This document shows, one piece after another, positions 8,434 through 54,668 of a DNA stretch of 64,000 nt. Numbering within the stretch: the first letter of the stretch is position 1; the number at the start of each line of letters is the position of its first letter. The notes under the pieces were generated by a model. It did no database searches and was not told the DNA's origin. It saw only the letters and a program-made list of their open reading frames with translations. The position numbers were made by a program, and so were the translations under genes. Source of the DNA: Terebella lapidaria (taxonomy: Eukaryota > Annelida > Polychaeta > Terebellida > Terebellidae); assembly GCA_949152475.1 (NCBI GenBank), contig OX424555.1, forward strand, positions 61,919,977-61,983,976, written 5' to 3'.

Positions 8434-8468
8434 GGTTGAAGTGATGACGGAATCGTAGGCCGGCCTGC

Positions 8469-8475: not shown

Positions 8476-8544
8476 GAAAAGGCGCGGACCAGGGATCTGG
8501 GGGAAAAAGCATTGTCGTGGAACGAAATAACGTTTTTCGCTTGC

Positions 8545-8665
8545 TTCCGCGAACGGTTCTTCCGCGAACGCTGCTTCCGCGAACGTGCTTCCGCAAACGG
8601 TACTTCCGCGAACGCTGCTTCCGCGAACGCCGCTTCCGCGAACGGTTCTTCCGCGAACGCTCCCG
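8545..8665 (-). repeat. TTCCGCGAACG-type repeat cluster upstream of the zinc-finger ORF
   Basis: About nine 13-16 bp units of CTTCCGCGAACG with GGTT, GCTG or CCG spacers, upstream (in minus-strand sense) of the internal TATA box. Confidence 0.85.
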
Positions 8666-8672
8666 TCGTCGT

Positions 8673-9308: not shown

Positions 9309-11042
9309 TCAAGGCAGAGGGTACGCATCCTTCCGGGTGACTTCATTTAGACGGCGGTTGTTGACACAACTGACGACCTCCACCTCCTTCTCCGTCAAGT
9401 CCGGATGCATTCCCTCCAGGAGCGGTTTTAAATGCTCCGGGCACTCTGGTGTCTTCGTCGACGATTCTGCGTGCATGGCGTGCACTCTGGTTTCGGGCTG
9501 CTCAGGCGTCCGGTTCCGCCACTTGGTGGAGTTTGGTGTAAGGGGCTCATGCTCCCTCCCGCTCTCCTCCCGGTACCACTGTTCCCTTTTAGGTTCATTC
9601 TGGGTTGTTTTCCCTCCATCGGGATGAAATCCTAGGTCGATCACGGCCTCTATTCCGTGAAGCTCAGCTAAGATGGTCCCCATCAGCACAGTGCAAGCTC
9701 CAGCGCCGGCGTTCAGAAGTACCACCGGTACCAGGCGTCCTCGGGGTCGTACCAGGGCTCGTCCCACTACGAGGGGGTCGTCCTCCAACGGCTCTCTTGC
9801 GGACTGCACGAGGCCGGCCTTCGGAACTCCTCCCTCACTTCCTGTCAGCTTGAGGTCCACCATCATCTCTGAAAAGGGTGGCAAGACGACCGTCTCCTCC
9901 GTCACCAGTGTGTAGACGGCGTCCTCGTGGCCCGAGCTCATCACTACGGTAGTGTCGCCCACCTGCCACTCGCCCTTACGCAGATCCAGCTGTCCCCCAA
10001 TCTGTTGAAGTACATCAAGCCCCAACACTCCCGGGATCCCTAGTTTGGCTACCAGTACGTCTGCCGACACGAGTCGTGTGCCCAGTAGAAGTTGAACTGT
10101 CATCTCTCCTTGAACCTGTAAGTAGTCTCCGGTTGCTGCCCGTAACCTTATTCTCGTCTGCCTTATCATTGCTTTATGTTCGTCATCCATTTGGTCGAAG
10201 AGACACTCGTCCAGAACGGTGGAAGAGGCACCCGTGTCCACCAACATACGAGTCGCCTTCCCCATAACGTGGCACGCCGCATACCACGCCAATGTGCCTC
10301 GGGCACCGGCTGACAGCGACACCACCTGGCCATTTCTGTCAATCTTAAGAGAGCTGCCACTCTCCTCAGGGACGCCGCCCTGGATAAGTACTGAGTCGTC
10401 CACCCACAGTGATGCACCACCCTGGTCCTCTCTGTCAGTCTTAAGGGAATCACTCCCCTCGGAACCGCCGCTCCGGATAAGTAATGAGTCGTCCACCAGC
10501 AATAGCTGCTGCGCTGGCCCCTTGGTCATTCCGCTCCACCGGCCCTCCGTCTCCTCTTTCACGGCCGCTTGTGGTTCAGTTGCATAGGGGGGTCCCTGCT
10601 GTTTCGCAGCCTCCAGCCTCAAGGTTGTAACCTGTTGGTTCTCCTTGCTGCTAGCAGAAACCTCGTTGATGTCTCCGTGGGTCCCCAGACGCTCCACGGC
10701 TCCATCGGTCTGCATTTCGTCGACGTCTCCGCGGGGCATTAGATGCTCCACGGCTCCATCGGTCTGCATTTCGTCGACGTCTCCGCGGGGCATTAGACGC
10801 TCCACGGCTCCATCGATTTGCTGTACATTGGCACTCTCATCTGTGTTGACAGGCTTACCCTCCAAATAGTCGAGAATTCGATCCTCGAGCTCCTCCTGCG
10901 CCCATCCAGTTACTTCGGATGCACACCGGAAAAACCTATTAAAAATCTGTGAAACTAAAAATCCCCCCCTGGCAATGTGTTCTTCACGTCTTCGTCGAGC
11001 TTCTCGCCTGTGAAGCCGTGCACACACCTGCCAATGGCCCAT
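9309..11042 (-). CDS. Pro-Pol ORF: aspartic protease, truncated at start of reverse transcriptase
   Basis: 577 codons from the first ATG; the frame is open back to the gag TAG at 11072-11070. Features in order: three 18-residue repeats (DVDEMQTDGAVE...) at about 10680-10820; two acidic (V)DDSLLI repeats; a retropepsin active site VDTGASS with the catalytic Asp near residue 269; then GVLGLDVL, the usual downstream motif. The C-terminus reads VNNRRLNEVTRKDAYPLP, the conserved entry to Ty3/gypsy reverse transcriptase, and stops there at TGA (9311-9309). Reverse transcriptase catalytic residues (YxDD) are absent. Confidence 0.8.
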   Translation of the reverse strand: MGHWQVCARLHRREARRRREEHIARGGFLVSQIFNRFFRCASEVTGWAQEELEDRILDYLEGKPVNTDESANVQQIDGAVERLMPRGDVDEMQTDGAVEHLMPRGDVDEMQTDGAVERLGTHGDINEVSASSKENQQVTTLRLEAAKQQGPPYATEPQAAVKEETEGRWSGMTKGPAQQLLLVDDSLLIRSGGSEGSDSLKTDREDQGGASLWVDDSVLIQGGVPEESGSSLKIDRNGQVVSLSAGARGTLAWYAACHVMGKATRMLVDTGASSTVLDECLFDQMDDEHKAMIRQTRIRLRAATGDYLQVQGEMTVQLLLGTRLVSADVLVAKLGIPGVLGLDVLQQIGGQLDLRKGEWQVGDTTVVMSSGHEDAVYTLVTEETVVLPPFSEMMVDLKLTGSEGGVPKAGLVQSAREPLEDDPLVVGRALVRPRGRLVPVVLLNAGAGACTVLMGTILAELHGIEAVIDLGFHPDGGKTTQNEPKREQWYREESGREHEPLTPNSTKWRNRTPEQPETRVHAMHAESSTKTPECPEHLKPLLEGMHPDLTEKEVEVVSCVNNRRLNEVTRKDAYPLP

Positions 11043-11069
11043 ACGGTTGGGGGCCCATACGGATGAGCC

Positions 11070-12731
11070 CTACTGGTTTTCCGACTCCTCGTCTGTCAAA
11101 CTGTTCCGCTCACCAATCTCCTCGATTAGTCGACTCAAGCGCTCCTCCTTGGTCCAAGGTGGCGGCCGATCTGGACACTGGTACTTCCGATGACCCGGCT
11201 TCCCACAGTACCAACAGTCATCTGGTCCTGGCCTAGCGCTTGGTCCCTTGTTCTCAGCAGTGGCGGCCCTCGGCTTGATGGATAGCACCTGCTCACACAG
11301 CTCGATTAGTCGATCCAGCTTCCTGTCTTGGCTCTCAAAGAGCCCCTTGAAGTAGGGAAGTCTGGGTAGACCCGCTACGTTCGGCTGGTTGCTCTGCTGC
11401 CCACTGGTGGTAATCTCGCCTCCCTGCTGGTTCTTTAATAGCTGTAGGACCCGTCCTAGAGCTGGCTCGGAGTCCTCCGACTCTATGGACATTACCGGCT
11501 TCCCAGGCTTGGGTTTGACACATTCGTACTGGGTCACGAACGCTATGGCCTCCTCCATGGTCTTCATCTTCCTCATGAGCGCCATCACCTTCATGTCCCC
11601 ATCTGGATGGCCCTTCCAGAAGTGGTCTAAGGCGATAGCCTCCTGAGCTGCGGAGTTCAGATCCGGATAACCACGGCCGGCCAGTCGCTGCAACTCATAG
11701 CCGTACTGCTGGGGTGTCTCTGCCTTCCTGCGGGTTCTCTGTCCCAAGGTCGCCTTGTAGGACTCCTCCTGACAGTCAGGGTCGAATCGTAGGGTCAGCT
11801 TGTCGGTCAGAACGTCGATGACCCTCCGGTCTGCAGGACTCAGGCTGGTCAGCATTCGTCGTGCCTCTCCTGTCAAGCTCCCGGCTAAGTAGACGCCCTG
11901 TTCCCGCTTGCTCCATCCGTTGACCTCTGCGATGACGTCAAAGTGGGCCCGGTACACCGGCCACTCTATGGAAGTCCCATCGAACTTGTCAGGGGTCAGC
12001 ATCTTCCGGTTCCTTCTGCCGTTCTGATTCCAGGCTGTGCTGTCCTCGGACGACGAGTCCTCCTGCCTCCGTCTCGGCCTAGGGCTTCGTCGGTGCAGTG
12101 GCGGTCCCCGCCTCGGTGGTCTCCTCCCCCGTCCTGGGTAACCATGGCTGCTGTCGGTCCCTCCCTCAGATGAAGGCCCCTCATCGCCCGATGATGAGAA
12201 AGGGTGTTGTCTCCGGCCTCCCTGGGTGACTGAAATAGAAGCTGGATTTCTCCAGGAGGCTGGCTGTCTCGGTTGTCGACTGGGTGAAGACCTCCCTCTT
12301 CCGCGAACGCTGTCTTCCGCGAACCTTCCGCGAACAGACTCCTCCGCCAACAGCTCCCGAAGAAGTTCTTCCGCGAACAGGCCTCTTCCGCGAACGCCGT
12401 CTTCCGCGAGTCTTCCGCGAACGGGCTCGTCCGCCAAGATGTCTCGGAGACGTCCCTCCACAAAAGATGTACGTCCGCGAACGCCGTCTTCCGCGAACCG
12501 GCTCATCCGCGAATGGTCTTCCCCGTCTATTCTGAAAAACTGGAAAGGAAGATTGGTCGCCTGGATCACTCCTTTCGTCGAGCCGCCGTCTGGGTGAAGA
12601 CTCCTCTCTTCCGCGAACACTCTCTTCCGCGAGTCGTCCTCGTCCGCGAACGTGGTCGTCTGCGAAGGGCCCTCCCCGGTCACAAGCGTCCTCGTCACCA
12701 AAGACTCCCCCTCGCCCACGAGCCCGTTCAT
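11070..12731 (-). CDS. gag: Gag capsid and nucleocapsid ORF
   Basis: 553 codons. The N-terminal part is a low-complexity RGR/FAEE repeat. The middle (about residues 240-420) resembles a retrotransposon gag capsid domain: KFDGTSIEWPVYRAHFD, then an Arg-rich helical region. A zinc knuckle C-x2-C-x4-H-x4-C lies at residues 506-519 (CWYCGKPGHRKYQC). The ORF ends at TAG. The following ORF is in the same frame and remains open directly after it, so Gag and Pro are separated by one amber codon. Function: assembly of the element's particle and RNA binding. Confidence 0.8.
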   Translation of the reverse strand: MNGLVGEGESLVTRTLVTGEGPSQTTTFADEDDSRKRVFAEERSLHPDGGSTKGVIQATNLPFQFFRIDGEDHSRMSRFAEDGVRGRTSFVEGRLRDILADEPVRGRLAEDGVRGRGLFAEELLRELLAEESVRGRFAEDSVRGRGRSSPSRQPRQPASWRNPASISVTQGGRRQHPFSSSGDEGPSSEGGTDSSHGYPGRGRRPPRRGPPLHRRSPRPRRRQEDSSSEDSTAWNQNGRRNRKMLTPDKFDGTSIEWPVYRAHFDVIAEVNGWSKREQGVYLAGSLTGEARRMLTSLSPADRRVIDVLTDKLTLRFDPDCQEESYKATLGQRTRRKAETPQQYGYELQRLAGRGYPDLNSAAQEAIALDHFWKGHPDGDMKVMALMRKMKTMEEAIAFVTQYECVKPKPGKPVMSIESEDSEPALGRVLQLLKNQQGGEITTSGQQSNQPNVAGLPRLPYFKGLFESQDRKLDRLIELCEQVLSIKPRAATAENKGPSARPGPDDCWYCGKPGHRKYQCPDRPPPWTKEERLSRLIEEIGERNSLTDEESENQ

Positions 12732-13590
12732 CCACGAAGGATCCCCGGCTGCAAGCGTCCCTGTCGCCGAAGAATGCCTCTCGTCCGCGAATGTTCTCTT
12801 CCGCGAAAAGTCCTCTCCCTCTCGAGCTGCTCTCTTGGGTCGGAGCCCAAGTAACCCGTCCTCCAGTCACTCCCGTTTGTCGACTCGTCACACCCGACCG
12901 CTGCCCTGTTGCACCAGACTGCTGCTCTGTTGCACCAGACTGCTGCTGGGACTGGTCCCAAAGCCGTCTCAATGCTGCATTCTCTGGAGGTGCCACACTT
13001 GGACTCTGCTCCGGTAGCTGTAGCCGATCCCTCCTCGCCCAGATTTCGCCGTCCTCCCCGTCCAGATTGACGTACTCCGGTCCCAGCACTCGTCGGAACT
13101 CGGGGCCCCTCCTAACGCTCTCAAGGTAGGTTGACCTCTCCCTGTCTCGATCGTGCTGCCACCCAGAGTCGTGTCTGAAAAGAAAACGGTTGTCGGGTGT
13201 CTGGCTCCGGGGTCTCTGTTGACTCGTCGACTGGCCCATGGAAGGTCTCGACCTCCCTGGTTGCTCCTCACTCGTCGAAACGTCCCGTCTACCCCTGGCT
13301 GTGAAGCTGCTCTTCCGCGAACGGTCGTCTTCCGCGAACGTTGTCTTCCGCGAACGGTTGTCGGCCTCTTCCGCCAAGGTTGTCTTCCGCGAACGGTTGT
13401 CGTCCGCGAACGTCTTCCGCGAACGGTCGTCTTCCGCGAACGTCTTCCGCGAACGGTCGTCTCCCTCTTCCGCAAAGGTCGGCTTCCGCGAACCGCTGTC
13501 TTCCTCGTCCGCAAGTGAGGCCGTCCGCGAAGAGTCTTCCTCTTCACCTCCTGTCTTCCCTGGGGCAGTTTCGTCGTTTCCGCCGGACAT
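12181..13590 (-). CDS. Gag N-terminal ORF, repeat-rich
   Basis: 469 codons from ATG at 13590, the first ATG after the primer site. No globular domain recognised. It is dominated by charged repeats (RSRKTTFAEDD-like) encoded by TTCCGCGAACG-type units, followed by Gln/Ser/Gly-rich and Arg-rich stretches. It overlaps the next ORF (capsid and nucleocapsid) by 551 bases in another frame. The two either represent one Gag joined by frameshifting, or one frame was lost by an indel in the repeats. The repeat unit has no stop in any minus-strand frame, so this long ORF alone does not prove translation. Confidence 0.55.
   Translation of the reverse strand: MSGGNDETAPGKTGGEEEDSSRTASLADEEDSGSRKPTFAEEGDDRSRKTFAEDDRSRKTFADDNRSRKTTLAEEADNRSRKTTFAEDDRSRKSSFTARGRRDVSTSEEQPGRSRPSMGQSTSQQRPRSQTPDNRFLFRHDSGWQHDRDRERSTYLESVRRGPEFRRVLGPEYVNLDGEDGEIWARRDRLQLPEQSPSVAPPENAALRRLWDQSQQQSGATEQQSGATGQRSGVTSRQTGVTGGRVTWAPTQESSSRGRGLFAEENIRGREAFFGDRDACSRGSFVDERARGRGGVFGDEDACDRGGPFADDHVRGRGRLAEESVRGREESSPRRRLDERSDPGDQSSFPVFQNRRGRPFADEPVRGRRRSRTYIFCGGTSPRHLGGRARSRKTRGRRRSRKRPVRGRTSSGAVGGGVCSRKVRGRQRSRKREVFTQSTTETASLLEKSSFYFSHPGRPETTPFLIIGR
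12297..12800 (-). repeat. TTCCGCGAACG-type units inside gag, distal block
   Basis: Dispersed units (CTTCCGCGAACG, CTTCCGCGAGTC, CGTCCGCGAACG) within the overlapping gag frames. They encode FAEE, RSRK or VRGR-type repeats depending on the frame. Confidence 0.75.
13311..13535 (-). repeat. TTCCGCGAACG-type units inside gag, proximal block
   Basis: About ten tightly packed units near the gag start; same consensus as in the LTR and before the zinc-finger ORF. Confidence 0.8.
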
Positions 13591-13633
13591 GAGTGATGCT
13601 GAGGTTCGTTCCCTGGCAGTAGACCCTCGGGGA

Positions 13634-13651
13634 TCCTGGTCACGTGCGCCA
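13634..13651 (-). other. Primer binding site candidate
   Basis: Three bases after the 5' LTR the minus strand reads TGGCGCACGTGACCAGG. A primer site starting TGG is expected here, complementary to a tRNA 3' end. I cannot assign the tRNA. Confidence 0.6.
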
Positions 13652-13654
13652 AGT

Positions 13655-14549
13655 TGTGACGTTTGGTAATGACTTGTTTTCGGTGTGGCCCAAAAAACCT
13701 GGTTTCTCTGATCGTATAGACTTTATGTAACTCCCGCTCGTTGTGATTCGAGAGCCGTCACTAATCTGGCGTTCCCCAACGCTGGTGTATCATCACTCCG
13801 TAGCTTACCGGCTTCACTTAGGCAAGAAGCAACTCAGATGTAAATAAATTGAAGATTTATATACATCAAATCAACTTACAATTGTATGGCTGGTCACCCA
13901 CGTGACGTACAAATATGAAGTTCAGACATGGAGCACTGTATGATCACATTTCAAAAATAAATAGTGCACGAGGGCACAACTAAAAAGAGTTCTTAGCCGG
14001 CGGCGTCTCTCTGTCCCTTCCCGTTGAAGTTTCCCGTCCCGTTTAGTCGAATGGTTTCTCCAGGTAGTCGGTCTAATCCCGGTTGACTCTAAGGCCCTGA
14101 AGAAGGAGTCGTCCGCACGGAGTTCGTCGAGTCCCTTGGCTGTGGCGGTGACGATCTCCCCACGGTCGATGTCGCTGTTGCAGTGCTCTCAGAGCGGCCG
14201 TCCGCTCTCCCTTATATAGCCAGGGTGGCTGCGCGCGCATCTTCGTCCGCGAACGTATCTTCCGCACTCTTCTCCACGTGGTGAAGACTGCGTCCGCGAA
14301 CGGTTCTTCCGCGAAGGCTCCTCTTCCGCGAACGGTGCTTCCGCGACTGATGCTTCCGCTGATGATGCTTCCGCAATCGTGCTTCCGCGAACGGTTCTTC
14401 CGCGAACGATGCTTCCGCTGATGATGCTTCCGCAATCGTGCTTCCGCGAACGGTTCTTCCGCGAACGGTGTCTTCGCAAGTGGACTTTGTAGATCACGTG
14501 ACCGTTCCTAACGAACGTTTCAGCGCGGCAGTTGCATGGTTTTGTTACA
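13655..14549 (-). repeat. 5' LTR (element orientation)
   Basis: 895 bp, same length as its partner. Differences seen: T/C near 6571, A/G near 6606, A/C near 6816, A/G near 6968 and C/T near 7181 (coordinates of the partner). It contains a TTCCGCGAACG-type repeat cluster upstream of a TATA box on the minus strand. Confidence 0.95.
14212..14218 (-). promoter_or_regulatory. LTR TATA box
   Basis: On the minus strand CTATATAAGGG. The identical site in the other LTR is 6888-6894. It follows the TTCCGCGAACG cluster by about 25-30 bases, so transcription of the element probably starts near 14180-14190. Confidence 0.6.
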
Positions 14550-27420: not shown

Positions 27421-28690
27421 TTGAATATCCAGCAAACCTGTGTATCATTCCATATATCTCCACAATGGATTGCAAAGCTGCACATTCAATATCAAGCAAT
27501 AATAGCAAGTTTGTTCTATGACATTGAAGATAAGGTCGAAGGTCAAATTAAAGGTCATCTAAATATTCGGCATACATCATTTCCTATATGTGCACAATTG
27601 ATTTCTAAGCTGTAAAGTTGATATTAAGCGAGATATTAGCCCCTTTGTCCTCTCACCTTAAAATGAGGTCAAAGGTCAAATTAACGGTCATCAGAATAAT
27701 ATGTATATATTATTTCCTAAGCTGTAAAATCGATATGTGAGATATTAGCCATTTTTTCCTGTGACCTTAAAATGAGGTCAAAGGTTGAACTCAAGGTCAC
27801 GAGAACAATATGCATATGTCATTCCCTATATGTTCACAATTGATTCCTAAGCTGCGAACTTGTGAAGTCGATAATTAGTGAGATATTAGCCATTTTGTCC
27901 TGTGACCTTAAAAATTAGGTCAAAGGTCAAATTCAAAGTCACGAGAACATTCAGCATATATCATTTCCTATATGTTCACAATTGATTCCTAAGTCGATAA
28001 TAAACGGGATATTGGCGGGACATTCTGTGTACTGATCTTGAAAATGAGGTCAACGGTCAATTTCAAGGTGATCCGAATATTCAGTGTATATCATTTCCTA
28101 TATGTCCACAATTGAAACCTAAATTGTAAAGTCGATAATAAGCGACATATTAGCCATTTTGTGCATTGACCTTGAAAATGAGGTCAAAGGTCATATTCAA
28201 GGTCACGAGAATATTCAGCATATATCATTTCTTATATCTCCACAATTGATTCCTAACCTGTAAAGTCGATAATAAGCGAGATATTAGCCATTTTGTGCTA
28301 TGACCTTGAAAATGAGGTCAAAGGTCAAATTCAAGGTCGTAAGAATATTCAGCATATATCAATTTCTATATGTCCACAATTGATTCCTAAACTGTAAAGT
28401 TGATAATAAGCGAGATATTAGCCATTTTGTACTATGACCTTGAAAATGAGGTCAAAGGTCAAATTCAAGGTAACAAGAATATTCAGCATATATCATTGCC
28501 TATATGTCCACAATTGATTCCTAAGCTGTAAAGTTGACAATAAGCGATATCAGCCATTTTGTGCTATGACCTTGAAAATGACGTCAAAGGTCAAATTCAA
28601 GGTCACCAGAATATTCAGCATGTATCATTTCCTATTATCCACAATTGATTCCTAGTCCCTAATCTCAATATTAAGTGGGATATTACGCTT
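27421..28690 (+). repeat. 134-bp satellite-like tandem array
   Basis: About nine to ten diverged units containing TTCACAATTGATTCCTAAGC, GATATTAGCCATTTTGT and GAGGTCAAAGGTCAAATTCA. The period, measured where the units are most regular (37891, 38025, 38159), is 134 bases. The same unit recurs at 29150-29570, 32530-33370, 33970-34450 and 37250-39330, and inverted at 54070-54620. Confidence 0.85.
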
Positions 28691-29580
28691 AATGTGTCCC
28701 ATTATAAAGCATAGGAGAATTTAACATGGGAAAGTCCCATTTGGGCCGAGTTTGGGCCCAAAGTGGCCAACTTCGAGCGATTCAAGCGCAACGAAATGTA
28801 TACATGTCACAGGGGTACATATGAGGAGTTTTGTGCATCAATGAGAAACAAAGTTACTGAACAGATTTTGAGGAAACGACCATCAAATTCCAAAATTGGC
28901 CATTTTTCCCATTATAAAGCATAGGAAAATTTAACATGGGGAACATTTTGAAACGAAAATCTCAATACTGATCAGACAGATTTTGAGAAAATAATTTTTG
29001 AAGTTGAAAAACATGAAAAACAGCTATTTTCGTAATAAAACAGCCATTTTCATAAAAATGGCCGCCTAACTGCATAAAGGATTCAATCAAAAAATTAGCC
29101 CGAAGGCTAAGAAAGGTTACTGGACAATGTTTTACATCTTAGATATTAGCCATTTCGTCCCGTGACTTTGAAAACAAGGTCAAAGGTCAAATTCAAGGTC
29201 CCAAGAATATTCAGCATATATATCATTTTATGTCCACAATTGATTCCTAAGCTGCAAAATCGACAATGAGCAAGATATTTATCACTTTGTGCTCTGACCT
29301 TGGAGATGAGATCAAATTCAAAGTCATGAGAATGAGAATATTCAGCATATATCATTTCCTATATGTGCTCAATTGATTGCAAAGCTGTAGGGTCAATAAG
29401 AAGTTGGATATTAGCCGTTTTGTGCTTTGACATTGAAAATGAGGTCGAAGGTCAAATTCAAAGTCATGACAATATTCAGTATATATATCGTTTACCATAT
29501 GTTCACAGTTGATTATTAAGCTGTATAGTTGATAATAAGCGATATATTAGGCACTTTATGCTCGGACTTGAAAACTAGAC
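28690..29580 (+). mobile_element. Composite-element fragments
   Basis: Begins with the conserved block TCCCATTATAAAGCATAGGA...AACATGGGAAAGTCCCATTT that follows the 134-bp units in complete copies. At about 29090 it reaches a new left end (ATTAGCCCGAAGGCTAAGAAAGG...) and further 134-bp units. Overlapping fragments; no coding capacity seen. Confidence 0.6.
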
Positions 29581-32539: not shown

Positions 32540-33765
32540 ATACAATTATATCAAAGGTCAAGTTCAAGGTCTTGACAATATTCAGTATACATATATCACT
32601 GAAGTCAAATGTCAAATTCAGGGTCATCAAAATATTCTACATACATCACTCCTATATGTCCACAATTGATTCCTAAGCTGTAAAGTCAATAACAAGTGAG
32701 ATATTAGCCATTGTGTTCTTTGACCTTGAAAATGATGTCAAATTCAAGGTCATCAGAAGGTGACGGAATATATCATTTCTCATATGTCCACAATAGATTC
32801 CTAAGTTGTATAGTCGATAATAGGCGAGATATTAGCCATTTGAAGCTTTGACCTTGAAAATGAGGTCAACGGTCAAGTTCAAGGTCATGACAATATTCAG
32901 CATATATCACTTCAAGGCCCCAATTGAATTGTAAGATGTGAAGTCGATAATAAGCGAGATTTTAGCCATTTTTTGTTGTGACCTTGAAAATGAAGTCAAA
33001 GGTCAAATTCAAGGTCATCAGAATATTCGGCGTAAATCATTTCCTATATGTCCACAACTGATTCCTAAGCTGTAAAGTCGATAATAAGCAAGATATTAAC
33101 CATTTTGTGCTTTTGACCTTGAAAATGAGGTCAGAGGTCAATTTCAAGGTCATCAGAATATTCGGCGTAAATCATTTCCTATATGTCCACAATTGATTCC
33201 TAAGCTGAAAGTCGATAATAAGTGAGATATAAGCCATTTTGTGCTCTGACCTTAAAACTGAGGTCAGAGGTCAAATTCAAGGTCGCGAGAATATTCAGCA
33301 TATATCATTTCGTATATGTCCACAATTGATTCCTAGTCTCCAATCTCAATATTAAGTGAGATATTAGGCATAATTTGTCCCATTATAAAGCATAGGAGAA
33401 TTTAACATGGGAAAGTCCCATTTGGGCCGAGTTTGGGCCAAAATGGCCCACTTCGAGCGATTCAAGGGCAACGAAATTTATAGACATCATAGGAGTACAT
33501 ATGAGGAGTGTTATGTATCAAAAAGAAAATGGCCGCCAAACTCCAAAATCAGGCATTTTTCGTCGAAAACGGCCGCCATTTTGAAAAAAAATGCGAAAAT
33601 CAAAAAACTAAAAAATACCTCCTTCTTGAATTATTTTTAAGTATTTTTGTGCAAAATTTCAGAAAAATTCGGAAAAGAAAAATGTGGACGACGACGACGA
33701 CGACGGACGACGACGACGGACGCAACGCCACGGCAATAGGTTATCGGACCAAAGGTCCGGTAACC
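32540..33765 (+). mobile_element. Composite element copy with right end GGTCCGGTAACC
   Basis: 134-bp units, then the TCCCATTATAAAGC block, a GACGACGACGG-rich stretch, and the end hairpin with arms GGTTATCGGACC and GGTCCGGTAACC (33739-33765). The left end is not clear. Confidence 0.65.
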
Positions 33766-37104: not shown

Positions 37105-40100
37105 CAGTGGTTCCTGTAAGATAAGACCTCACCTTTTGCAGTAAAAATGAGGTCTCATCTTACAGGAAGTCTTATTTCACAGGTTCATTTACATGTTAAT
37201 TTGATCTTTGGGGAATATAAAAAATTAGCCCAAGGGCTAAGAAAGGTTACCGGACCATATACATTTTAGATATTAGCCTTTTGTCCAGTGACCTTGAAAA
37301 TACAGTCACTGGTAAATTCAAGGCCATGAAAATTTCAACAAATATATCACTTCTAGTATGTCCACAATAAATTCCCAAGCTGTAAAGTCAATAATAAGTG
37401 AGATATTAGCCATTCTGTGATGTGACCTTGAAAATGAGGTCAAAGTTCAAGTTCAAGGTCATGAAAATATTCAGTATATATCATTCCTCTATATTCGCAA
37501 TTGATCCCTAAGCTGTGAAGATGATAATAAGCGACATATTAGCCATTTTGTTCTCTGACCTTGAAAATAAGATCAAAGGTCAAATTCTAGATCACCAAAA
37601 TATTCAGCATACATCATTTCCTATATGTTCACTATGGACCCCTAAGCTGTAAATTTGATAATAAGCGAGATATAAGCCATTTTGTATTCTGACCTTGAAA
37701 ATAAAATGACTGACCTTGAAATTTAGGTCAAACGTCAAATTCAAGGTCACTAGAATATTCAGCATATATCATTTCCTATATGTTCACAATTGATTCCTAA
37801 GCTGTAAAGTCGCTAATAAGCAATATATTGGCCATTTTGTCCTGTGACCTTGAAATGAGGTCAAAGGCCAAATTCAAGGTCACGAGAATATTCAGCATAT
37901 ATCATTTCCTATATGTTCACAATTGATTCCTAAGCTGTAAAGTCGATAATAAGCGAGATATTAGCAATTTTGTCCTGTGACCTTTGAAATGAGGTCAAAG
38001 GACAAATTCAAGGTCATGAAAATATTCAGCATATATCATTTCCTATATGTTCACAATTGATTCCTAAGCTGTAAAGTCGACAATAAGCGAGATATTAGCA
38101 ATTTTGTCCTGTGACCTTGGAAATGAGGTCAAAGGTCAAATTCAAGGTCACGAGAATATTCAGCATATATCATTTCCTATATGTTCAAAATTGATTCCTA
38201 AGCTGTAAAGTCAATAATAAGCGAGATAGCCATTTTGTCATGTGACCTTGAAAATGAGGTCAAAAGTCAAATTCAAGGTCACGAGGATATTCAGCATATA
38301 TCATTTCCTATATGTCCACAATTGTTTCCTACTCTCTAATCAGCATATATCATTTCCTATATGTTCACAATTGATTCCTAAGCTGTAAAGTCGCTAATAA
38401 GCAAGATATTGGCCGTTTTGTCCGTTGACCTTGAAAATGAGGTCAAAGGTCAAATTAAAGGTCACGAGAATATTCAGCGTATATCATTTCCTATATGTTC
38501 ACAATTGATTCCTAAGCTGTAAAGTCGATAATAAGCGAGATATTAGCAATTTTGTCCTGTGACCTTGGAAATGAGGTCAAAAGTCAAATTCAAGGTCACG
38601 AGAATATTGAGCATATATCATTTCCTATATGTTCACAATTGATTCCTAAGCTGTAAAGTCGATGATAAGCGAGATATTAGCAATTTTGTTGTGTGACCTT
38701 GGAAATGAGGTCAAAGGCCAAATTCAAGGTCACAAGAATATTCAGCATATATCATTTCCTATATGTTCACAACTGATTCCTATGCTGTAAAGTCGATAAT
38801 AAGCAAGATATTAGCCATTTTGTCATGTGACCTTGAAAATGAGGTCAAAGGTCAAAATCAAGGTCACAAGAATATTCAGTATATATCATTTCCTATATGT
38901 TCACAATTGATTCCTAAGCTGTAAAGTCGATAATAAGCGAGATATTAGCAATTTTGTCCTGTTACCTTGGAAATGAGGTCAAAGGTCAAATTCAAGGTCA
39001 CAAGAATATTCAGCATATATCATTTCCTATATGTTCACAATTGATTCCTAAGCTGTAAAGTCGATAATAAGTAAGATATTGGCCATTTTGTCACGTGACC
39101 TTGAAAATGAGGTCAGAGGTCAAATCCAAGGTCACGAGAATATTCAGCATATATCATTTCCTATATGTTCACAATTGATTCCTAAGCTGTAAAGTCGATA
39201 ATAAGCGAGATATTAGCCATTTTGTCCTGTGACCTTGAAAATGAGGTCAAAGGTCAAATTCAAGGTCATGAGAATATTCAGCATATATCATTTCCTATAT
39301 GTCCACAATTGATTCCTACTCTCTAATCTCAATATTAAGTGAGATATTAGGCTTAATGTGTCCCATCATAAAGCATAGGAAAATTTAACATGGGAAAGTC
39401 ACATTTGGGCCGAGTTTGGGCCCAAAATGGCCCACTTCGAGCGATTCAAGGGCAACAAAATTTATACAGGTCACAGGGGTACATATGAGGAGTGTTTTTC
39501 ATCAATAAGAAAAAAAGTTACTGAACAGATTTTGAGAAAACGACCGTCAAAGTCCAAAATTGGCCATTTTTCGACGAAAACGGCCGCTCTGACCTTGAAA
39601 CCGAGGTCAGAGGTCAAATTCAAGGTCACGACAATATTCAGCATATATCATTTCCTATATGTCCGCAATTGATTCCTAGTCTCTAATCTCAAAATTAAGT
39701 GAGATATTAGGCTTAATGTGTCCCATTATAAAGCATAGGAGAATTTAACATGGGAAAGTCCCATTTGGGCCGAGTTTGGGCCCAAAATGGCCCACTTCGA
39801 GCGATTCAAGGGCAACGAAATTTATACATGTCACAGCGGTACATATGAGGAGTGTTATGCATCAATAAGAAAAAAAGTTACTGAACAGATTTTGAGAAAA
39901 CGACCATCAAAGTCCAAAATTGGCCATTTTTCGACGAAAACGGCCGCCATTTTGAAAAAAATGCGAAAATCAAAAAATTAAAAAAAACCTTTCCTGGAAA
40001 TATGTTTAGGTATTTTTGTGCAAAATTTCAGAAATATTCCATCGTAAACTTTAAAGATAAAAATGTGAACGGACGGACGACGGACGGATGACGGACGCAA

Positions 40101-40572: not shown

Positions 40573-43500
40573 TCAAAAGTCAAGGTCACAGTCGGGACTC
40601 TCCTCAAGATCACTGATACTGTCCTGAACAAGTGTGGGAAAGCTCTGGCCCAGGCTACACAGTGCTCCGTGCAGGCTCCTGAACACCTTGTATGTCTCGC
40701 TGGTGAAGGTAAGGAGACAATCTGTCAATTCTCAAATTTATTGGAATAATTTCAAAATCATTAAAACTACATTCAAAATATACGGTAGTTTCAAAAAAAT
40801 AATTTTTGAAAAGCTTGGATGCAAAATGCCATTGAACACATGCATTTATCTGACCCAAACTCTCAATAATATATGAACAAAACCATGTAGGACAATACAA
40901 TCATGGATTCATCATTGACCACATCTAACGTATGCAGTACAATTTACCTGGAAGTGCTGTCGTTCTCAGCAAATGTGTCTAGGACTAGTTTCAGGTGGTC
41001 TAGGAGGTACCTGGACCACACCAGCACTTGGAGGTGGTGCACCAGGCTTGTGTGCTCTAGAAGCTGTCTCCTGCTTTTGTACAACAACTTTTCTGGGGGC
41101 ATTGGTACTGTTGAGAAAGGGTTTTTTCTTTTAATTCTGACTTACATTTGAATATTCAACAATAACCTACAGAAACTTCAAGCTTGAGTTATGTATCAAA
41201 GGACAAACTTCATGTTCTGTTACTTGGCCTTGCTGTGCGGATATACAATAACATATTTAGGGCTGACGGTTTACTTACATGTGCCAAGACCTGGAGGTAA
41301 CCAATAGACGGCACTTTGTTTAGAATCACGAGTAACCTTTGGGTCTGAAGCAGCTGACTCTTGAATAACACCAGACAGGTCTGAAATAAACATTGGATTC
41401 AACACTGCACATATGTCACCATATCTGGGCCAAGATCTGGTGTGGGTATACATACTTTAACTCACACAACAATTATTAAGACCAAAATGTGGCATGATTT
41501 CTTAATATAGGTATCTTTCAAATGTTTGATAGAGGGTCATCACATACATTCAATGAATCAATACCATTATCAATTGCTGGTAGTGTTGTTCTACAGAAGA
41601 GAACGCTGTCAGGACCAGGTACAGCTTGTGTGTACTCAGGCTGACTTACCATGTACAAGTTGCTGGTAGTGTTGTTCTACAGAAGAGAACGCTGTCAGGA
41701 CCAGGTACAGCTTGTGTTTACTCAGGCTGACTTACCATGTACAAGTTGCTGGTAGTGTTGTTCTACAGAAGAGAACGCTGTCAGGACCAGGTACAGCTTG
41801 TGTTTACTCAGACACACTTACCATGTACAAGTTGCTAGTAGTGTTGTTCTACAGAAGAGAACGCTGTCAGGACCAGGTACAACTTGTGTTTACTTGGGCT
41901 GACTTACCATGTACAAGTTGCTGGTAGTGTTGTTCTACAGAAGAGAACTCTGTCAAGACCAAGTACAGCTTGTGTTTACTCAGGCACACTTACCATGTAC
42001 AAGTTGCTGGTAGTGTTGTTCTACAGAAGAGAACTCTGTCAAGACCAAGTGCAGCTTGTGTTTACTCAGGCACACTTACCATGTACAAGTTGCTGGTAGT
42101 GTTGCTCTACAGAAGAGAACAATGTCAGGACCAGGTACAGCTTGTGTTTACTCAGGCACACTTACGATGTACAAGTTGCTGGTAGTGTTGTTCTACAGAA
42201 GAGAACTCTGTCAGGACCAGGTACAGCTTGTGTTTACTCAGGCTGACTTACCATGTACAAGTTGCTGGTAGTGTTGTTCTACAGAAGAGAATGCTGTCAG
42301 GACCAGGTACAGCTTGTGTTTACTCAGGCACACTTACCATGTACAATTTGCTGGTAGTGTTGTTCTACAGAAGAAAACGCTGTCAGGACCAAGTACAGCT
42401 TGTGTTTACCACGTACAAGTTGCTGGTAGTGTTGTTCTACAGAAGAGAACGCTGTCAGGACCAGGTACAGCTTGTGTTTACTGAGGCACACTTACCATGT
42501 ACAAGTTGCTGGTAGTGTTGTTCTACAGAAGAGAACGCTGTCAGGACCAGGTACAGCTTGTGTTTACTCAGGCTGACTTACCATGTACAATGTGCTGGAA
42601 GTGTTGTTCTACAGAAGAGAACGCTGTCAGGACCAGGTACAGCTTGTGTTTACTCAGGCTGACTTACCATGTACAAGTTGCTGGAAGTGTTGTTCTACAG
42701 AAGAGAACACTGTCAGGACCAGGTACGGCTTGTGTTTACTCAGGCTGACTTACCATGTACAAGTTGCTGGTAGTGTTGTTCTACAGAAGAGAACACTGTC
42801 AGGACCAAGTACAGCTTATGTTTACTCAGGCCGACTTACCATGTACAAGTTGCTGGTAGTGTTGTTCTACAGAAGAGAATGCTGTCAAGACCAGGTACAG
42901 CTTGTGTTAACTCAGGCTGACTTACCATGTCCAAGTTGCTGGTAGTGTTGTTCTACAGAAGAGAACGCTGTCAGGACCAGGTACAGCTTGTGTTTACTGA
43001 GGCTGACTTACCATGTACAAGTTGCTGGTAGTGTTGTTCTACAGAAGAGAACACTGTCAGGACCAGGTACAGCTTGTGTTTACTCAGGCTGACTTACCAT
43101 GTACAAGTTGCTGGTAGTGTTGTTCTACAGAAGAGAACACTGTCAGGACCAAGTACAGCTTGTGTTTACTCAGACACACTTACCATGTACAAGTTGCTGG
43201 TAGTGTTGCTCTACAAAAAAGAACGCTGTCAAGACCAAGTACAGCTTGTGTTTACTCAGGCACACTTACCATGTACACGTTGCTGGTAGTGTTGTTCTAC
43301 AGAAGAGAACGCTGTCAGGACCAGGTACAGCTTGTGTTTACTCACGACACACTTACCATGTACAAGTTGCTGGTAGTGTTGTTCTACAGAAGAGAACGCT
43401 GTCAGGACCAGGTACAGCTTGTGTTTACTCGGGCTCACTTACCATGTACAAGTTGCTGGTAGTGTTGTTCTACAGAAGAGAACTCTGTCAAGACCAAGTA

Positions 43501-46500
43501 CAGCTTGTGTTTACTCAGGCACACTTACCATGTACAAGTTACTGGTAGTGTTGTTCTACAGAAGAGAACTCTGTCAAGACCAAGTACAGCTTGTTTTTAC
43601 CGATGTCTTCTAAATGCTGGTACACTGGTATGCTGGTACAAGCATTGCAAGGTGCATGAACTCAACAATACTGCTCATTTCGTGTATGCCTCAATAAGCC
43701 GCACAATGCTTGTACCAGTATACCAGCGTACCAGCGTTTAGAAGACATCGTGTTTTTACTCAGGCACACTTACCATGTACAAGTTGCTGGTAGTGTTGCT
43801 CTACAGAAGAGAACACTGTCAGGACCAGGTACAGCTTGTGTTTACTCAGGCACACTTACGATGTACAAGTTGCTGGTAGTGTTGTTCTACAGAAGAGAAC
43901 TCTGTCAGGACCAGGTACAGCTCGTGTTTACTCAGGCTGACTTACCATGTACAAGTTGCTGGTAGTGTTGTTCTACAGAAGAGAACACTGTCAGGACCAG
44001 GTACAGCTTGTGTTTACTCAGGCATACTTACCATGTACAAGTTGCTGGTAGTGTTGCTCTACAGAAGAGAACACTGTCAGGACCAAGTACAGCTTGTGTT
44101 TACTCAGGCTGACTCACCATGTACAAGTTGCTGGTAGTGTTGTTCTACAGAAGAGAACACTGTCAGGACCAGGTACAGCTTGTGTTTACTGAGGCATACT
44201 TACCATGTACAAGTTGGTGGTAGTGTTGTTCTACAGAAGAGAACGCTGTCAGGACCAGGTACAGCTTGTGTTTACTGAGGCATACTCACCATGTACAAGT
44301 TGCTGGTAGTGTTGTTCTACAGAAGAGAACACTGTCAGGACCAGGTACAGCTTGTGTTAACTCAGGCACACTTACCATGTACAAGTTGCTGGTAGTGTTG
44401 TTCTACAGAAGAGAACGCTGTCAGGACCAGGTACAGCTTGTGTTTACTCAGGCTGACTCACCATGTACAAGTTGCTGGTAGTGTTGTTCTACAGAAGAGA
44501 ATGCTGTCAGGACCAAGTACAGCTTGTGTTTACTCAGGCACACTTACCATGTACAAGTTGCTGGAAGTGTTGTTCTACAGAAGAGAACGCTGTCAGGACC
44601 AGGTACAGCTTGTGTTTACTCAGGCACACTTACCATGTACAAGTTGCTGGTAGTGTTGTTCTACAGAAGAGAACGCTGTCAGGACCAGGTACAGCTTGTG
44701 TTTACTCAGGCTGACTTACCATGTACAAGTTGCTGGTAGTGTTGTTCTACAGAAGAGAACGCTGTCAGGACCAGGTACAGCTTGTGTTTACTCAGGCACA
44801 CTTACATGTACCATGTACAAGTTGCTGGTAGTGTTTTTTCTACAGAAGAGAACGCTGACAGGACCAGGTACAGCTTGTGTTTACTCAGGCACACTTACCA
44901 TGTACAAGTTGCTGGTAGTGTTTTTCTACAGAAGAGAACGCTGTCAGGACCAGGTTCAGCTTGTGTTAACGCAGGCACACTTACCATGTACAAGTTGCTG
45001 GTAGTGTTTTTTCTACAGAAGAGAACGCTGACAGGACCAGGTACAGCTTGTGTTTACTCAGGCACACTTACCATGCACAAGTTGCTGGTAGTGTTTTTCT
45101 ACAGAAGAGAACGCTGTCAGGACCAGGTTGTTCTGGTCAGCTTGTGTTTACTCAGGCACACTCACCATGTAAAAGTTGCTGGTAGTGTTGTTCTACAGAA
45201 GAGAACACTGTCAGGACCAGGTACAGCTTGTGTTTACTGAGGCACACTTACCATGTACAATTTGCTGGTAGTGTTGTTCTACAGAAGAGAACACTGTCAG
45301 GACCAGGTACAGCTTGTGTTTACTCGGGCTGACTTACCATGTACAAGTTGCTGGTAGTGTTGTTCTACAGAAGAGAATGCTATCAGGACCAGGTACAGCT
45401 TGTGTTTACTCAGGCTGACTTAACATGTACAAGTTGCTGGTAGTGTTGTTCTACAGAAGAGAACACTGTCAGGACCAGGTACAGCTTGTGTTTACTCAGG
45501 CTGACTTAACATGTACAAGTTGCTGGTAGTGTTGTTCTACAGAAGAGAACACTGTCAGGACCAGGTACAGCTTGTGTTTACTCAGGCTGACTTACCATGT
45601 ACAAGTTGCTGGTAGTGTTGTTCTACAGAAGAGAACGCTGTCAGGACCAGGTACAGCTTGTGTTTACTGAGGCTGACTTACCATGTACAAGTTGCTGGTA
45701 GTGTTGTTCTACAGAAGAGAACACTGTCAGGACCAAGTACAGCTTGTGTTTACTCAGACACACTTACCATGTACAAGTTGCTGGTAGTGATGTTCTACAG
45801 AAGAGAACGCTGTCAGGACCAGGTACAGCTTGTGTTAACTCAGGCTGACTTACCATGTACAAGTTGCTGGTAGTGTTGTTCTACAGAAGAGAACACTGTC
45901 AGGACCAGGTACAGCTTGTGTTAACTCAGGCTGACTTACCATGTACAAGTTGCTGGTAGTGTTGTTCTACAGAAGAGAACGCTGTCAGGACCAGGTACAG
46001 CTTGTGTTAACTCAGGCTGACTTACCATGTACAAGTTGCTGGTAGTGTTGTTCTACAGAAGAGAATGCTGTCAGGACCAGGTACAGCTTGTGTTTACTCT
46101 GGCATACTTACCATGTACAAGTTGCTGGTAGTGTTGTTCTACAGAAGAGAACGCTGTCAGGACCAAGTACAGCTTGTGTTTACTCAGACACACTTACCAT
46201 GTACAAGTTGCTGGTAGTGTTGTTCTACAGAAGAGAATGCTGTCAGGACCAGGTACAGCTTGTGTTTACTGAGGCATACTTCACGCCAGTCATCCAGACC
46301 TTTAACACACATATAAGATTGTGAAGCATAATTATATTGATTGCGTAGAGACATTCAAAGCGAAATCAGGACGCAGTAAGATTTAATGTCATATAATGAG
46401 AGATATTCCAGGAATTTCTCGAAAACAGTCATCGAGATCAATTGCAAATAGGAGTCACATTTTCCAACACTTCCTGATGCATGCTATCCACAGAGCGTAC

Positions 46501-48554
46501 AAATTCAGCTGAATTATACCTTGCTCTCTGTGCCTTGTCAGGTCATCAAGCAAGGATTGTAAACAATTGTACAGTGTATTCATTGACAACAGTTTACGGA
46601 GCCTTTGTGCTGAATCACTTCTGTCACGGTCTATCTACAAAAGAAAAATCCCACTGTAAACATGACTTCTAATTGAAAAGGAATATCACTGGTATGCAGG
46701 TTGCAGGTATGTACTTTCAAAGAGGTATACCGGTATGTCTGAGTTTTTAATGTGATTTATTGCTCATGTACACATAAGTCTGGATACAGATGGAATATTA
46801 TTCTTACCAACAATTTCAAATTTTGCACATATTTTGTCCAAAAATTAGTAAGGAAACATATAAACTCACATCCTGTTGTAACATTTGCATGAAGTCCTCT
46901 GCAGGGCTATTCTGATGGCTGAGGCCGGTTGTCATGTACACAACCTTGGCCTTTTCCCGCAGACGACGGTTCTGGGCCAGCAGCTTGTTGAACTTCCCCG
47001 GGAGGCTCAGCTGTTTCCTGAAACAAAATTGCCATATACTATACAATAAGTGTCAAAGCAAGTCACTAAGTTTAATGTAGCCCATGAGATACATACCCTT
47101 GTTGCACCAACAGGAATCGCTCCTCACTTTCAGTAGTAGTAGGAGCCTCTGAGTCCTGTAGTGTTTTACTTGGAGTTTCTCCCTGTATCAGTTGTGATGT
47201 CCCTGGTGCTCCTTCAGCAGCCTTGCCGGGTTTCATTGATGCTGTCACAGAATCACTAATTGTCTTTGTCTTGAATGGTTTTTCTATGACCTCAGCAGAC
47301 TTGCTGCTTGTGTCCTGTACTTGTTGAGCACCCAGCGAAGGCAATTTCTGGTCCTTATTCTCGATACTATGTGCATGTTTCATAGCTACCACATGACCAC
47401 GTCTAGCTGCAGGTAATCCACTAGCCCCTCTGCCAGGTCGGGACTTGGCGCTCGACAAAGCTCCCCTCGCTGACCTGACATGGATCACCGAGCCTCTCCC
47501 CCGTCTACTCACCACAGAATTGGTCTTGAAGGGGGCCGTGGCATGTGCTGGAGTGAAATTTGCCTTCGGTGCCGGTCGGACGGAGGACCGGACGTGTGGT
47601 CTGCCAGCAGGGTCCTGGGAGTCAAGTTGAGGATTGCTGGGCCTCGTACCATGGCTTGATTTGGGTCTTGTCGGTTTTGGGGGTGCTTTGATTTTTGCAG
47701 AGTTGGGTAATGGTTTAAGCGAAGGTTTTGTTTTTAGTTTGGGCTGATTTTCAGTAGAAATTTCCCCATATGCAGCAGGTTTAGTTACGTTTGGGTTGAT
47801 ATTTTCACTTTCCGACAAATTTGAATTTTGCAGTTCTTGAAGCGAGTTGCACAACATGGCTTCTGATTGTTCATTTTGTTCTAACTGCAAGTATGAATGC
47901 ACAGATACAGATACAAAAATGTGACAAATAAGCAACAAAAACACAAAAATAACATGTTCAAATTTCTTTTTATAATAAAACAAATTATGCTGTTGACCTT
48001 TGTATGAAATTTGTTCCTCGTCTTTTCGGCTTTGGCTAGAGCTTTGTCAACTAGGGAAAATCCAGCTTGTTCTTCTGGTGGAACGACTGGAGCTGGAAAC
48101 AACGAAATTAGGCACATATATCATGTAAATTGACAGGTTTGTTATCATGGTAAGACCAGGCATAGAATAGGAAATTCAGTGTGTCTAGTTGGAAATACAT
48201 TATGTACTGGCAAACAAATGGATTTGAAGATACATGTACAGTAATACCTGCTTGATGAGCTGCATCTTCTCTAGCACAAGACTGGTTCCTCACTTCACAG
48301 GCATCTTCTCCCTTTTTCTTTTTCTTTGGCCTGCAGATGGAATTTATAATAAATATTTGAATTTTTATTTAAAAACAAACAATCAAAGATCACAGTTTAC
48401 ACAGACATGTACAGAAGTTCTATGTCCTCATTACAAAATTTCTCATGTACAGCACTTGCATGTACAGCATACAATACAAACCAAGGTTTTAGCACTTGAC
48501 GGCAATCATGGCAGACTTTATCAGTTTGTTTCCGCTGGAGCTGACAGACGACAT
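40573..48554 (-). CDS. TEDC2: TEDC2-like centriole protein (tubulin epsilon and delta complex subunit 2)
   Basis: Nine minus-strand exons: 48554-48496 (least certain, start MSSVSSSGNKL), 48330-48248, 48092-47998, 47884-47097, 47017-46870, 46634-46520, 41380-41279, 41107-40948 and 40699-40573. Every junction keeps frame; 558 residues; stop TGA at 40575-40573. Segments that match my memory of vertebrate TEDC2 in order: FSLVDKALAKAEKTRNK; a long Pro/Ser/Lys-rich disordered exon; LSLPGKFNKLLAQNRRLREK; LRKLLSMNTLYNCLQSLL; LLYKSRRQLLEHTSL; FRSLHGALCSLGQSFPTL. TEDC2 works with TEDC1, delta- and epsilon-tubulin to build stable centriole triplets. The 5.1-kb intron 46519-41381 contains the 86-bp micro-exon-like array. 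Identification is from pattern memory, not a search; exon structure is more certain than the name. Confidence 0.62.
41573..46281 (-). repeat. 86-bp tandem array, about 53 units, each shaped like a micro-exon
   Basis: Period 86 throughout, with rare indels (short unit near 42400, extra bases near 44805 and 45130). On the minus strand a unit holds CTGAC, a pyrimidine run ending TTCTCTTCTGTAG, 27 bases, then GTAAGT. Example: 41676-41650 is the 27-base stretch, donor at 41649. Read in the phase of the enclosing intron (phase 1) the 27 bases give EQHYQQLVH. Most units keep the donor as GTAAGT or GTGAGT. Two units, near 41830 and 43540, carry an in-frame stop, and some units have 28-base stretches. 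The array lies wholly within the TEDC2-like intron. Confidence 0.9.
43601..43750. mobile_element. 150-bp palindromic MITE inside the 86-bp array
   Basis: Ends CGATGTCTTCTAAATGCTGG and, inverted, CGATGTCTTCTAAACGCTGG; inverted arms of about 47 bases. Flanked by TGTTTTTAC at 43592-43600 and 43751-43759, a 9-bp target duplication; the array consensus there is TGTGTTTAC. A 9-bp duplication with long inverted repeats suggests a Mutator-like origin. Confidence 0.8.
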
Positions 48555-53523: not shown

Positions 53524-54668
53524 AGGTTACCGGACCTATGGTCCGATAACCTATTGCCGTCGCGTTGCGTCCGTCGTCCGTCCGTTCACATTTTTATCTT
53601 TAAAGTGTACGGTGCAATATTTCTGAAAATTTGAGAAAAGATAACTTATAATAATAATACGAGAAGGAGGTATTTTTTAGTTTTCAGGTTACCTGACCAA
53701 TGGTCCGATAACCTATTGCCATGGCGTTGCGTCCGTCGTCCGTCCGTCCGTCGTCGTCGTCGTCGGCGTCCGTCCACATCTTTATCTTTAAAGTTTACGG
53801 TCCAGTCTTTCTGAAAATTTGGGAAAAGATACCTTAAATAATTCGAGAAGGAGGTATTTTTTACCTCTTTCATTTTTTCAATTTTCCCAATTTGGGCGGC
53901 CATTCTCTCAAAAACTGTCTGATCAGATTTAAGAGTTTTGTTTCGAAAGATAAGTTTCGTTGCCCTTGAATCGCCGGTCTGCGTGTGGCGGCCATTTTGA
54001 TTTTGTCAACCTGTCCCAAATGACACTTTCCCATGTTGAATTCTCTTATTCTTTATAATGGGACACATTATTGCTAATATCTCACTTAATATTGAGATTA
54101 GAGATTAATAATCAATTGTGGACATATATGAAATGAGATATGCTGGATTTTCTTGTGACCTTGAATTTGACCTTTGATCTCACTTTCAAGGTCAGAAAAC
54201 AAAATGGGTAGTATCTCGATTATTATCAACTTTACTGCTTAGAAATCAATCGTGAGATATATTGGAAATGATATATGCTGAAGACTTTCATGAGCTTGAA
54301 CTTGACCTTCGATGTCATTTTCAAGGTCAAAGCACAAAGTGGCTAATATCTCACTTATTATCGACTTCACAGCTTAGGAATCAATTGTACATATACGGTA
54401 AATGGTATATGCTGAATATTATCATGACCTTGAATTTGACCTTTGATCTCATTTTTAAGGTCAGTGCACAAAATGGCTAATATCTCTTTTATTACTTAGT
54501 TTACAGCTGAGCAATCAATTGTGCACTTATAGGAAATGATATATGCTGAACATCGTTGTCACCTTGAGTGACCAGTGACCTAATTTTCAAGGTCAGGGGA
54601 CAAAAGAGCCAATATCCAAAGTATAATACATAAAGTGTCCAGTAACCTTTCTTAGCACTTGTGCTAAA
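53524..54668 (-). mobile_element. Inverted composite element copy
   Basis: Starts with the hairpin GGTTACCGGACC...GGTCCGATAACC and the CGTCCGTCGTCC run, holds inverted 134-bp units (54070-54620), and ends CAGTAACCTTTCTTAGCAC...GTGCTAA. A second right-end hairpin at 53685-53714 shows one copy inserted next to or into another. Confidence 0.65.

Follow-up and report, generated by a model that had tools for sequence, protein, structure and literature searches.

The closest described counterpart of the locus reported here is the SmPoMuc mucin family of Schistosoma mansoni, whose genes contain up to 20 genomic repeats of approximately 1 kb, each with a 27-bp exon (PMC2576457, PMC4015677). According to the portions of these accounts drawn on here, transcripts carry up to 100 repeats and concerted evolution homogenises the repeats (PMC2576457), 27-bp exons also occur in MEG-4/Sm10.3 (PMC4015677), and schistosome micro-exon genes (MEGs) have symmetric micro-exons, mostly multiples of three nucleotides in length, that can be skipped in frame (PMC4015677, PMC3961193, PMC10526429). 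Herein, we describe a 64,000-nucleotide stretch of the genome of the polychaete Terebella lapidaria (hereafter the window; assembly GCA_949152475.1, contig OX424555.1, positions 61,919,977 to 61,983,976), in which an intron of a TEDC2-like gene on the minus strand holds an array of 53 tandem units, each with the anatomy of a complete 27-nt micro-exon and its 59-nt intron. On balance, we lean towards the view that these are genuine micro-exon cassettes that were amplified in place, are sparsely included in transcripts, and are mostly decaying.

The array resembles SmPoMuc in that a whole 27-bp exon and its flanking intron are tandemly repeated, in a manner that would give rise to a run of 9-residue repeats. 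As far as its cited description extends, SmPoMuc is a multigene family of schistosomes whose repeats are confirmed by cDNA, with a unit of approximately 1 kb and no more than 20 copies per gene. The array, in contrast, has an 86-bp unit that occurs 53 times at one locus, within a gene from a conserved family, and its exon is recognised from splice signals and reading frame. A genomic repeat of a whole exon plus intron is found here as in SmPoMuc, and the exon is symmetric, a multiple of three in length, and in frame in 46 of the 53 units. The architecture of repeated micro-exons is already published for SmPoMuc; the array differs from it in unit size, copy number, and host gene. Introns of schistosome micro-exon genes range from 100 to almost 5000 bp in the text cited above, in contrast to the 59-nt introns between the near-identical exons of the array. 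A search of the open-licence literature with a few terms found, in the text retrieved, no exon-intron unit of less than 100 bp in dozens of copies.

Two further systems share individual aspects of this organization. Each kringle IV-2 (KIV-2) unit of LPA holds whole exons of a folded domain. This coding variable number tandem repeat (VNTR) is described, in the part of the account used here, as having 1-40 units of 5.6 kb per allele (PMC11462820). The array would likewise be a protein-coding VNTR, observed in one assembly and with one copied four-unit block, and its units are 86 bp rather than 5.6 kb. The gene known for splice donors supplied by a minisatellite is human IFI6 (6-16). The corresponding report, of a minisatellite supplying multiple splice donors in an interferon-induced transcript, is represented here by its title as cited in PMC2572611. 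IFI6 is similar in that a minisatellite within a gene supplies repeated splice sites; judging by that title these are donors, whereas each unit of the array carries an acceptor, an exon, and a donor.

The array consists of complete exon-intron units at what appears to be a single locus

The array occupies 41562..46281 of the window on the minus strand, as delimited by nhmmer. A first-pass annotation of the window had proposed about 53 tandem copies between 41573 and 46281; we counted 53 acceptor-anchored minus-strand units and recovered the upper limit, but the lower limit lies 11 bases further out. Its description of the 86-bp unit, with CTGAC 18 bases before the acceptor, followed by TTCTCTTCTGTAG, 27 nt, and GTAAGT, and with 59-nt introns in between, was found in every part. 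The consensus exon is AACAACACTACCAGCAACTTGTACATG, with the donor GTAAGT; the intron, counted with its donor, is 59 nt and ends in CTGACAGCGTTCTCTTCTGTAG. CTGAC is at unit positions 65-69, placing a branch-like A 18 nt ahead of the last intron base.

Acceptor-to-acceptor spacing is 86 bp in 46 of 52 cases, the remainder being 87 (twice), 94, 93, 72, and 245 bp. The acceptor AG is preserved in all 53 units and a GTRAGT donor in 49, the exceptions being units 9, 10, 43, and 53. A partial leading unit (46225..46281, nhmmer model positions 30-86) contributes intron sequence that runs from position +3 of a donor up to the first acceptor. Next comes the micro-exon of unit 1 (46198..46224), which has 27 nt, reads EQHYQQLVH, and opens a series of 12 in-frame units that are spliceable and lie ahead of unit 15. 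The exons of units 9 and 10 with their intervening intron (45424..45536) both now have the donor TTAAGT. The unit 15 exon (44985..45012) is 28 nt, frameshifted by an inserted A, and that of unit 17 (44806..44839) is 28 or 34 nt owing to an inserted A and a duplicated donor region. Units 30 (43529..43555) and 50 (41822..41848) contain in-frame TAA and TAG codons, respectively, and are the two stop-containing units that had been noted at first pass. Unit 43 is 72 bp with the donor GTAAAC, and unit 53 (41565..41590) is an edge copy with a 26-nt exon and the weak donor GTATTG. All of these features are on the minus strand.

In the species' own assembly (761.6 Mb), all 53 genome-wide matches to the unit and all 52 matches to the 27-mer with three or fewer mismatches fell inside the array, both counts being lower bounds. 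Because all matches found fall within it, the array looks like a single locus rather than a dispersed element or a transposon family. Two nhmmer scans of the 64-kb window identified no diverged older units outside the array at E <0.04, and alignments of the array flanks were not significant (p = 0.14 and 0.35).

The micro-exon matches the reading frame of a DUF4693 gene

Eight minus-strand exons join into an open frame with the C-terminus ...DCDLDF; the first coding exon of this host gene was not placed. Upstream of the array are the first exon placed (48248..48330), a second (47998..48092), one encoding a low-complexity N-terminal region (47097..47884), one with the sequence QLSLPGKFNKLL... 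(46870..47017), and the exon immediately preceding the array (46520..46634), which ends in ...LTRHREQ plus one base at the donor GTATAA. Downstream are the exon that begins (D)LSGVIQES (41279..41380), an exon of the C-terminal part of DUF4693 (40948..41107), and the last coding exon (40574..40699), which runs through the TGA after DCDLDF. The array-bearing intron is 5.1 kb and phase 1, its upstream exon supplying one codon base and its downstream exon two. The 27-nt block between TAG and GTAAGT preserves this frame, such that each copy would add EQHYQQLVH between LTRHREQ and DLSGVIQES; the earlier assignment of a phase-1 frame and of this peptide is borne out, as both sides are phase 1 and complete cassettes are in the host frame.

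The host protein containing one micro-exon matches the Pfam family DUF4693 (PF15764) with 30.2 bits against a cut-off of 27, and its C-terminal part without the micro-exon scores 39.9 bits. DUF4693 is the family of TEDC2/C16orf59, and the earlier designation of a TEDC2-like gene agrees with the domain match. The human protein, in the part of the report cited, acts with TEDC1 and with delta- and epsilon-tubulin at centrioles (PMC11896610). A PF15764 profile search over the genome gave no match at the host locus, nor at any of 14 controls, and therefore carries no weight. Searches found no solved structures, and Rfam and tRNA scans of the window gave no matches.

Splice sites of the array are stronger than those of the enclosing intron

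We scored donors and acceptors using weight matrices. The median donor score in the array is 10.5 bits, and the array donors outscore all seven host donors (3.3-9.4 bits), while the array acceptors have a median of 9.8 bits (8.1-11.0) compared to 5.7-11.6 for the eight host acceptors, two of which are higher. The sites of the enclosing intron itself are at 4.5 bits (donor) and 6.1 bits (acceptor). From these scores we infer that a spliceosome using the host sites should also recognise the array cassettes.

When the circular unit was dinucleotide-shuffled, an equally strong cassette arose in 4 of 100,000 shuffles, and in 1 of 100,000 it was also a multiple of three in length and open in phase 1. 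Allowing 2 bits of slack per site, these numbers rose to 161 and 46 of 100,000, respectively. We also examined, on both strands, the 27 Tandem Repeats Finder (TRF) rows with units of at least 60 bp, six of which belong to the array and 21 of which lie elsewhere in the window. The cassette is present in five of the six array rows, the 72-bp row being the exception. None of the other 21 has a cassette this strong; two come within 2 bits, with exon lengths (98 and 14) that are not divisible by three. The array cassette is unlikely to be a chance resemblance.

Diversity between units is lowest across the cassette

Variation was analysed across 52 aligned units, with unit 53 excluded, an insertion next to unit 29 and inserted bases set aside, and gap letters not counted as variants. 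Thresholds and region masks were picked after viewing the alignment; alternatives were also run, and the non-significant ones are included below. The donor is variable at 2 of its 6 sites, the acceptor tract at 3 of 13 (all C to T), and the remaining intron at 22 of 40 (Fisher tests against intron: donor p = 0.41, acceptor p = 0.059). A minor allele carried by at least five units occurs at 0 of 46 cassette sites compared to 8 of 40 intron sites, which hold nine such variants (Fisher p = 0.0014, with a post hoc threshold).

The 46-nt segment formed by acceptor, exon, and donor has the lowest heterozygosity among the 86 rotations of the unit (site-permutation p = 0.003, or 0.011 minus one CpG). 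It ranks first at carrier thresholds of 2 to 5 and second at 6, and remains first among 48 unique haplotypes, in a 42-unit subset, and in both halves of the array (p = 0.0034-0.0094). With all variants counted it ranks 16 of 86, and new mutations show no depletion there. The acceptor tract alone ranks second (p = 0.008), and in the second half of the array alone it ranks fourth (p = 0.07). The first-pass annotation had suggested testing whether substitutions spare the splice sites and the frame: diversity is reduced over the cassette as a whole, but not significantly over the exon by itself, and no constraint on its amino acids is visible, as detailed below. A simple reading would be that variation spread while the cassette was under constraint, and that the present array is losing this constraint.

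Most units could be spliced in singly without loss of frame

Forty-six of the 53 units, when included singly, preserve the downstream frame, and 33 of these encode exactly EQHYQQLVH. The seven that fail have lost their donor (units 9 and 10), have the wrong length (15, 17, and 53), or contain stops (30 and 50). If units were included independently, a transcript would escape the five frame breakers with a probability of 90% when each unit has an inclusion rate of 2%, falling to 59% for a rate of 10% and to 3% for one of 50%. Because five spliceable units break the frame, productive messenger RNAs would have to be sparse in array exons: if the cassettes are used, such transcripts must include few units, or units selected by position. 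The suggestion that anywhere from zero to many copies could be added is compatible with the frame of these 46 units taken singly, but inclusion of the array in its entirety is not supported.

We then compared protein constructs containing different numbers of the 9-residue block. The host C-terminal part scores 39.9, 33.4, 34.1, 39.7, and 40.8 bits against DUF4693 with zero to four copies, respectively. Single-copy controls score 33.7 and 33.1 (scrambles) and 33.1 bits (an unrelated 9-mer), and triple controls 31.9, 34.4, 34.5, 30.8, and 37.9 (scrambles) and 32.7 bits (the unrelated 9-mer). Constructs from EDFMQML onward score 28.0, 20.6, 19.1, and 21.3 bits with zero to three copies and 16.2 with a triple scramble; for the post-array part alone the scores are 19.9, 20.5, and 22.0 bits with zero, one, and three copies, and 19.9 with a triple scramble. 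Three copies give a collinear Pfam alignment (12-257 with 39-284). This is mainly an effect of length, because all five triple scrambles do likewise. These copy-number and scramble probes do not support the idea that the micro-exon was an ancestral element conserved in DUF4693, and its residues did not correspond to profile columns.

Across the junction, the largest heptad moment is reached with exactly one copy (1.39 compared to 0.69 with none; equalled by 12% of scrambles), which fits, weakly, a single ancestral copy. With eight copies, the moments drop to 0.35 (100 degrees) and 0.53 (heptad). The coiled segment of variable length that had been envisaged at first pass is not supported, as a period of nine residues does not match the heptad and every further copy beyond the first would tend to lower the moments.

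The array appears to have changed by block copying

Units 27-30 and 45-48 differ at five positions in total, the smallest difference among 1035 four-unit comparisons (mean 22.6), and an equally close pair arose in 23 of 2000 random unit orders; this block had been picked out visually before it was tested. A single difference separates units 14 and 16, and three separate units 15 and 17. A first scan of the array had identified no copied runs of at least three units with one or fewer differences each. The array thus seems to change through the copying of blocks.

A 151-bp insertion (43601..43751, minus strand) lies in the intron after unit 29; it has terminal inverted repeats (CGATGTCTTCTAAA...) and is flanked on each side by the 8-bp GTAAAAAC. 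It looks like a short non-autonomous DNA transposon, and from the 8-bp duplication we take it to be hAT-like. As it is present after unit 29 and missing after unit 47, the insertion probably entered after the four-unit block had been copied.

The first base of the array corresponds to position 30 of the unit and its last base to position 29, so that no fraction of a unit is left over; in-place amplification of a single exon-bearing segment would be expected to produce this. A search of the genome for a retro-copy of the spliced repeat junction found none that was convincing: it gave seven matches compared to 1+1 in a reversed-pattern control, all seven had three mismatches, and four were one repeated sequence.

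Origin and possible function of the array

What we observed directly is the anatomy of the units, their agreement with the host frame, the strength of their splice sites, the confinement of all matches found to one locus, and one four-unit block that has been copied. The account that we somewhat favour is that a genuine symmetric, phase 1-1 micro-exon of 27 nt was amplified in place with its 59-nt intron within this DUF4693/TEDC2-like gene, by unequal exchange or slippage able to copy blocks of units. The result would be a VNTR whose unit is one whole exon and whose copy number is probably variable. The spliceosome would recognise the cassettes, and a fraction of transcripts would acquire EQHYQQLVH, once or several times, at the junction of LTRHREQ and DLSGVIQES, with inclusion sparse in productive messenger RNAs and most units redundant and decaying. 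More tentatively, and with clear doubt, allelic cassette number together with variable splicing may set the length of TEDC2 in 9-residue steps, or its dose via the frame breakers.

Several results weigh against genuine, spliced micro-exons. Our searches gave no homologous protein. The array introns are 59 nt, whereas no other intron placed in the host gene is below 79 nt. Inclusion of every donor-bearing unit shifts the frame at unit 15 and leads to a stop ahead of the conserved end. In the Pfam comparison, one copy (33.4 bits) does no better than a scrambled 9-mer (33.1-33.7) and falls below zero copies (39.9), and the 100-degree helical moment is 1.10 with one copy compared to 1.19 with none, 22% of scrambles equalling the one-copy value. 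The share of variable sites is equal in exon (15/27) and intron (22/40; Fisher p = 1.0), the diversity of the exon alone ranks 20 of 86 and is not significantly low (p = 0.12), and the cassette shows no depletion of singletons (rank 30 of 86). The 15 exon variants comprise 11 nonsynonymous, two nonsense, and two synonymous changes, against a neutral expectation of 2.4-3.7 synonymous and 1.1-1.4 nonsense. No amino-acid constraint or purifying selection on the exon is visible, in a test with little power.

A neutral minisatellite is the strongest competitor, although we consider it unlikely. Under this explanation an old or newly arisen cassette is skipped, 46520 is normally joined to 41380, and no repeat protein is made; the lack of visible amino-acid constraint, the two stops, the frameshifting units, the lost donors, and the undepleted singletons are all in keeping with it, as is the zero-copy protein, which fits Pfam best or equally (39.9 bits, compared to 40.8 with four copies). 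It accounts less well for cassette sites that are stronger than those of the enclosing intron, for a diversity minimum that falls exactly over acceptor, exon, and donor, and for a cassette of a kind seen in 1 of 100,000 shuffles.

Somewhat less likely again is that the array acts as a decoy or poison, its repeated sites trapping splicing factors or yielding frame-broken transcripts, and so adjusts how much protein is made and not how long it is. Such a role would fit the contrast between the strong cassettes and the weak host sites next to them, as well as the frameshift at unit 15 when all donor-bearing units are included. There is also precedent: human genes have decoy exons that favour the retention of long introns and, like the array, those of OGT, ARGLU1, and SF3B1 are exon-like cassettes within one intron that engage the spliceosome, according to the part of the study cited (PMC12017769). 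However, 46 of the 53 units singly keep the frame, which a poison role does not need. A minisatellite that merely happens to look like an exon is highly improbable, given that such a cassette arose in 1 of 100,000 shuffles and in none of the 21 other TRF rows with units of at least 60 bp in the window, even though the 53 copies descend from one founder sequence and so count once, and the region was selected out of 64 kb.

If the micro-exon cassettes are indeed spliced, the array would be a very compact natural system for the evolution of exon number, with 53 near-identical units at one locus, among which naturally occurring mutants of the donor, the frame, and the stop-free reading are already mapped. 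It would be a test of splicing when dozens of equivalent exons compete across introns of 59 nt, and of how much change in length a conserved centriole protein can accommodate. It would also extend the repeated micro-exon architecture, as described in the schistosome literature cited, from mucin and MEG genes to a gene of a conserved family.

Other features of the window and assembly

Several separate arrays with units of approximately 134 bp (AGATATTAGCCATTTTGT..., TGAGGTCAAAGGTCAAATTCAAGGTCA...) flank the host gene on both sides and apparently belong to one repeat family; TRF places them at 27716-28654, 29141-29574, 32600-33371, 37268-39350, and 54073-54616. Further away, short TGCTTCCGCGAACGG-type repeats are present at 6965-14475, inside the long open frames of a retroelement-like region (9309-11069 and 11070-12866, minus strand; judged by eye). 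The intervals 6965-7151 and 14289-14475 have an identical TRF consensus and may be terminal copies of this region.

Elsewhere in the assembly, contig C438 is the mitochondrial genome (15,973 bp; protein genes named by eye). The 22 tRNA genes found on it are on one strand in the order F-E-P-T-C-M-M-V-L-A-S-L-I-K-S-N-D-Y-G-Q-W-H, which is presumably the annelid ground order. tRNA-Arg was not found on this contig, and a long simple repeat at approximately 13,200-13,600 translates as MYMYMY. The two tRNA-Met genes are adjacent, an arrangement reported in Terebelliformia. A second COX1-like match, in two pieces and with an in-frame TGA, is found on contig C417 (44633-46450), and is possibly a nuclear copy of mitochondrial DNA or part of a further mitochondrial contig.

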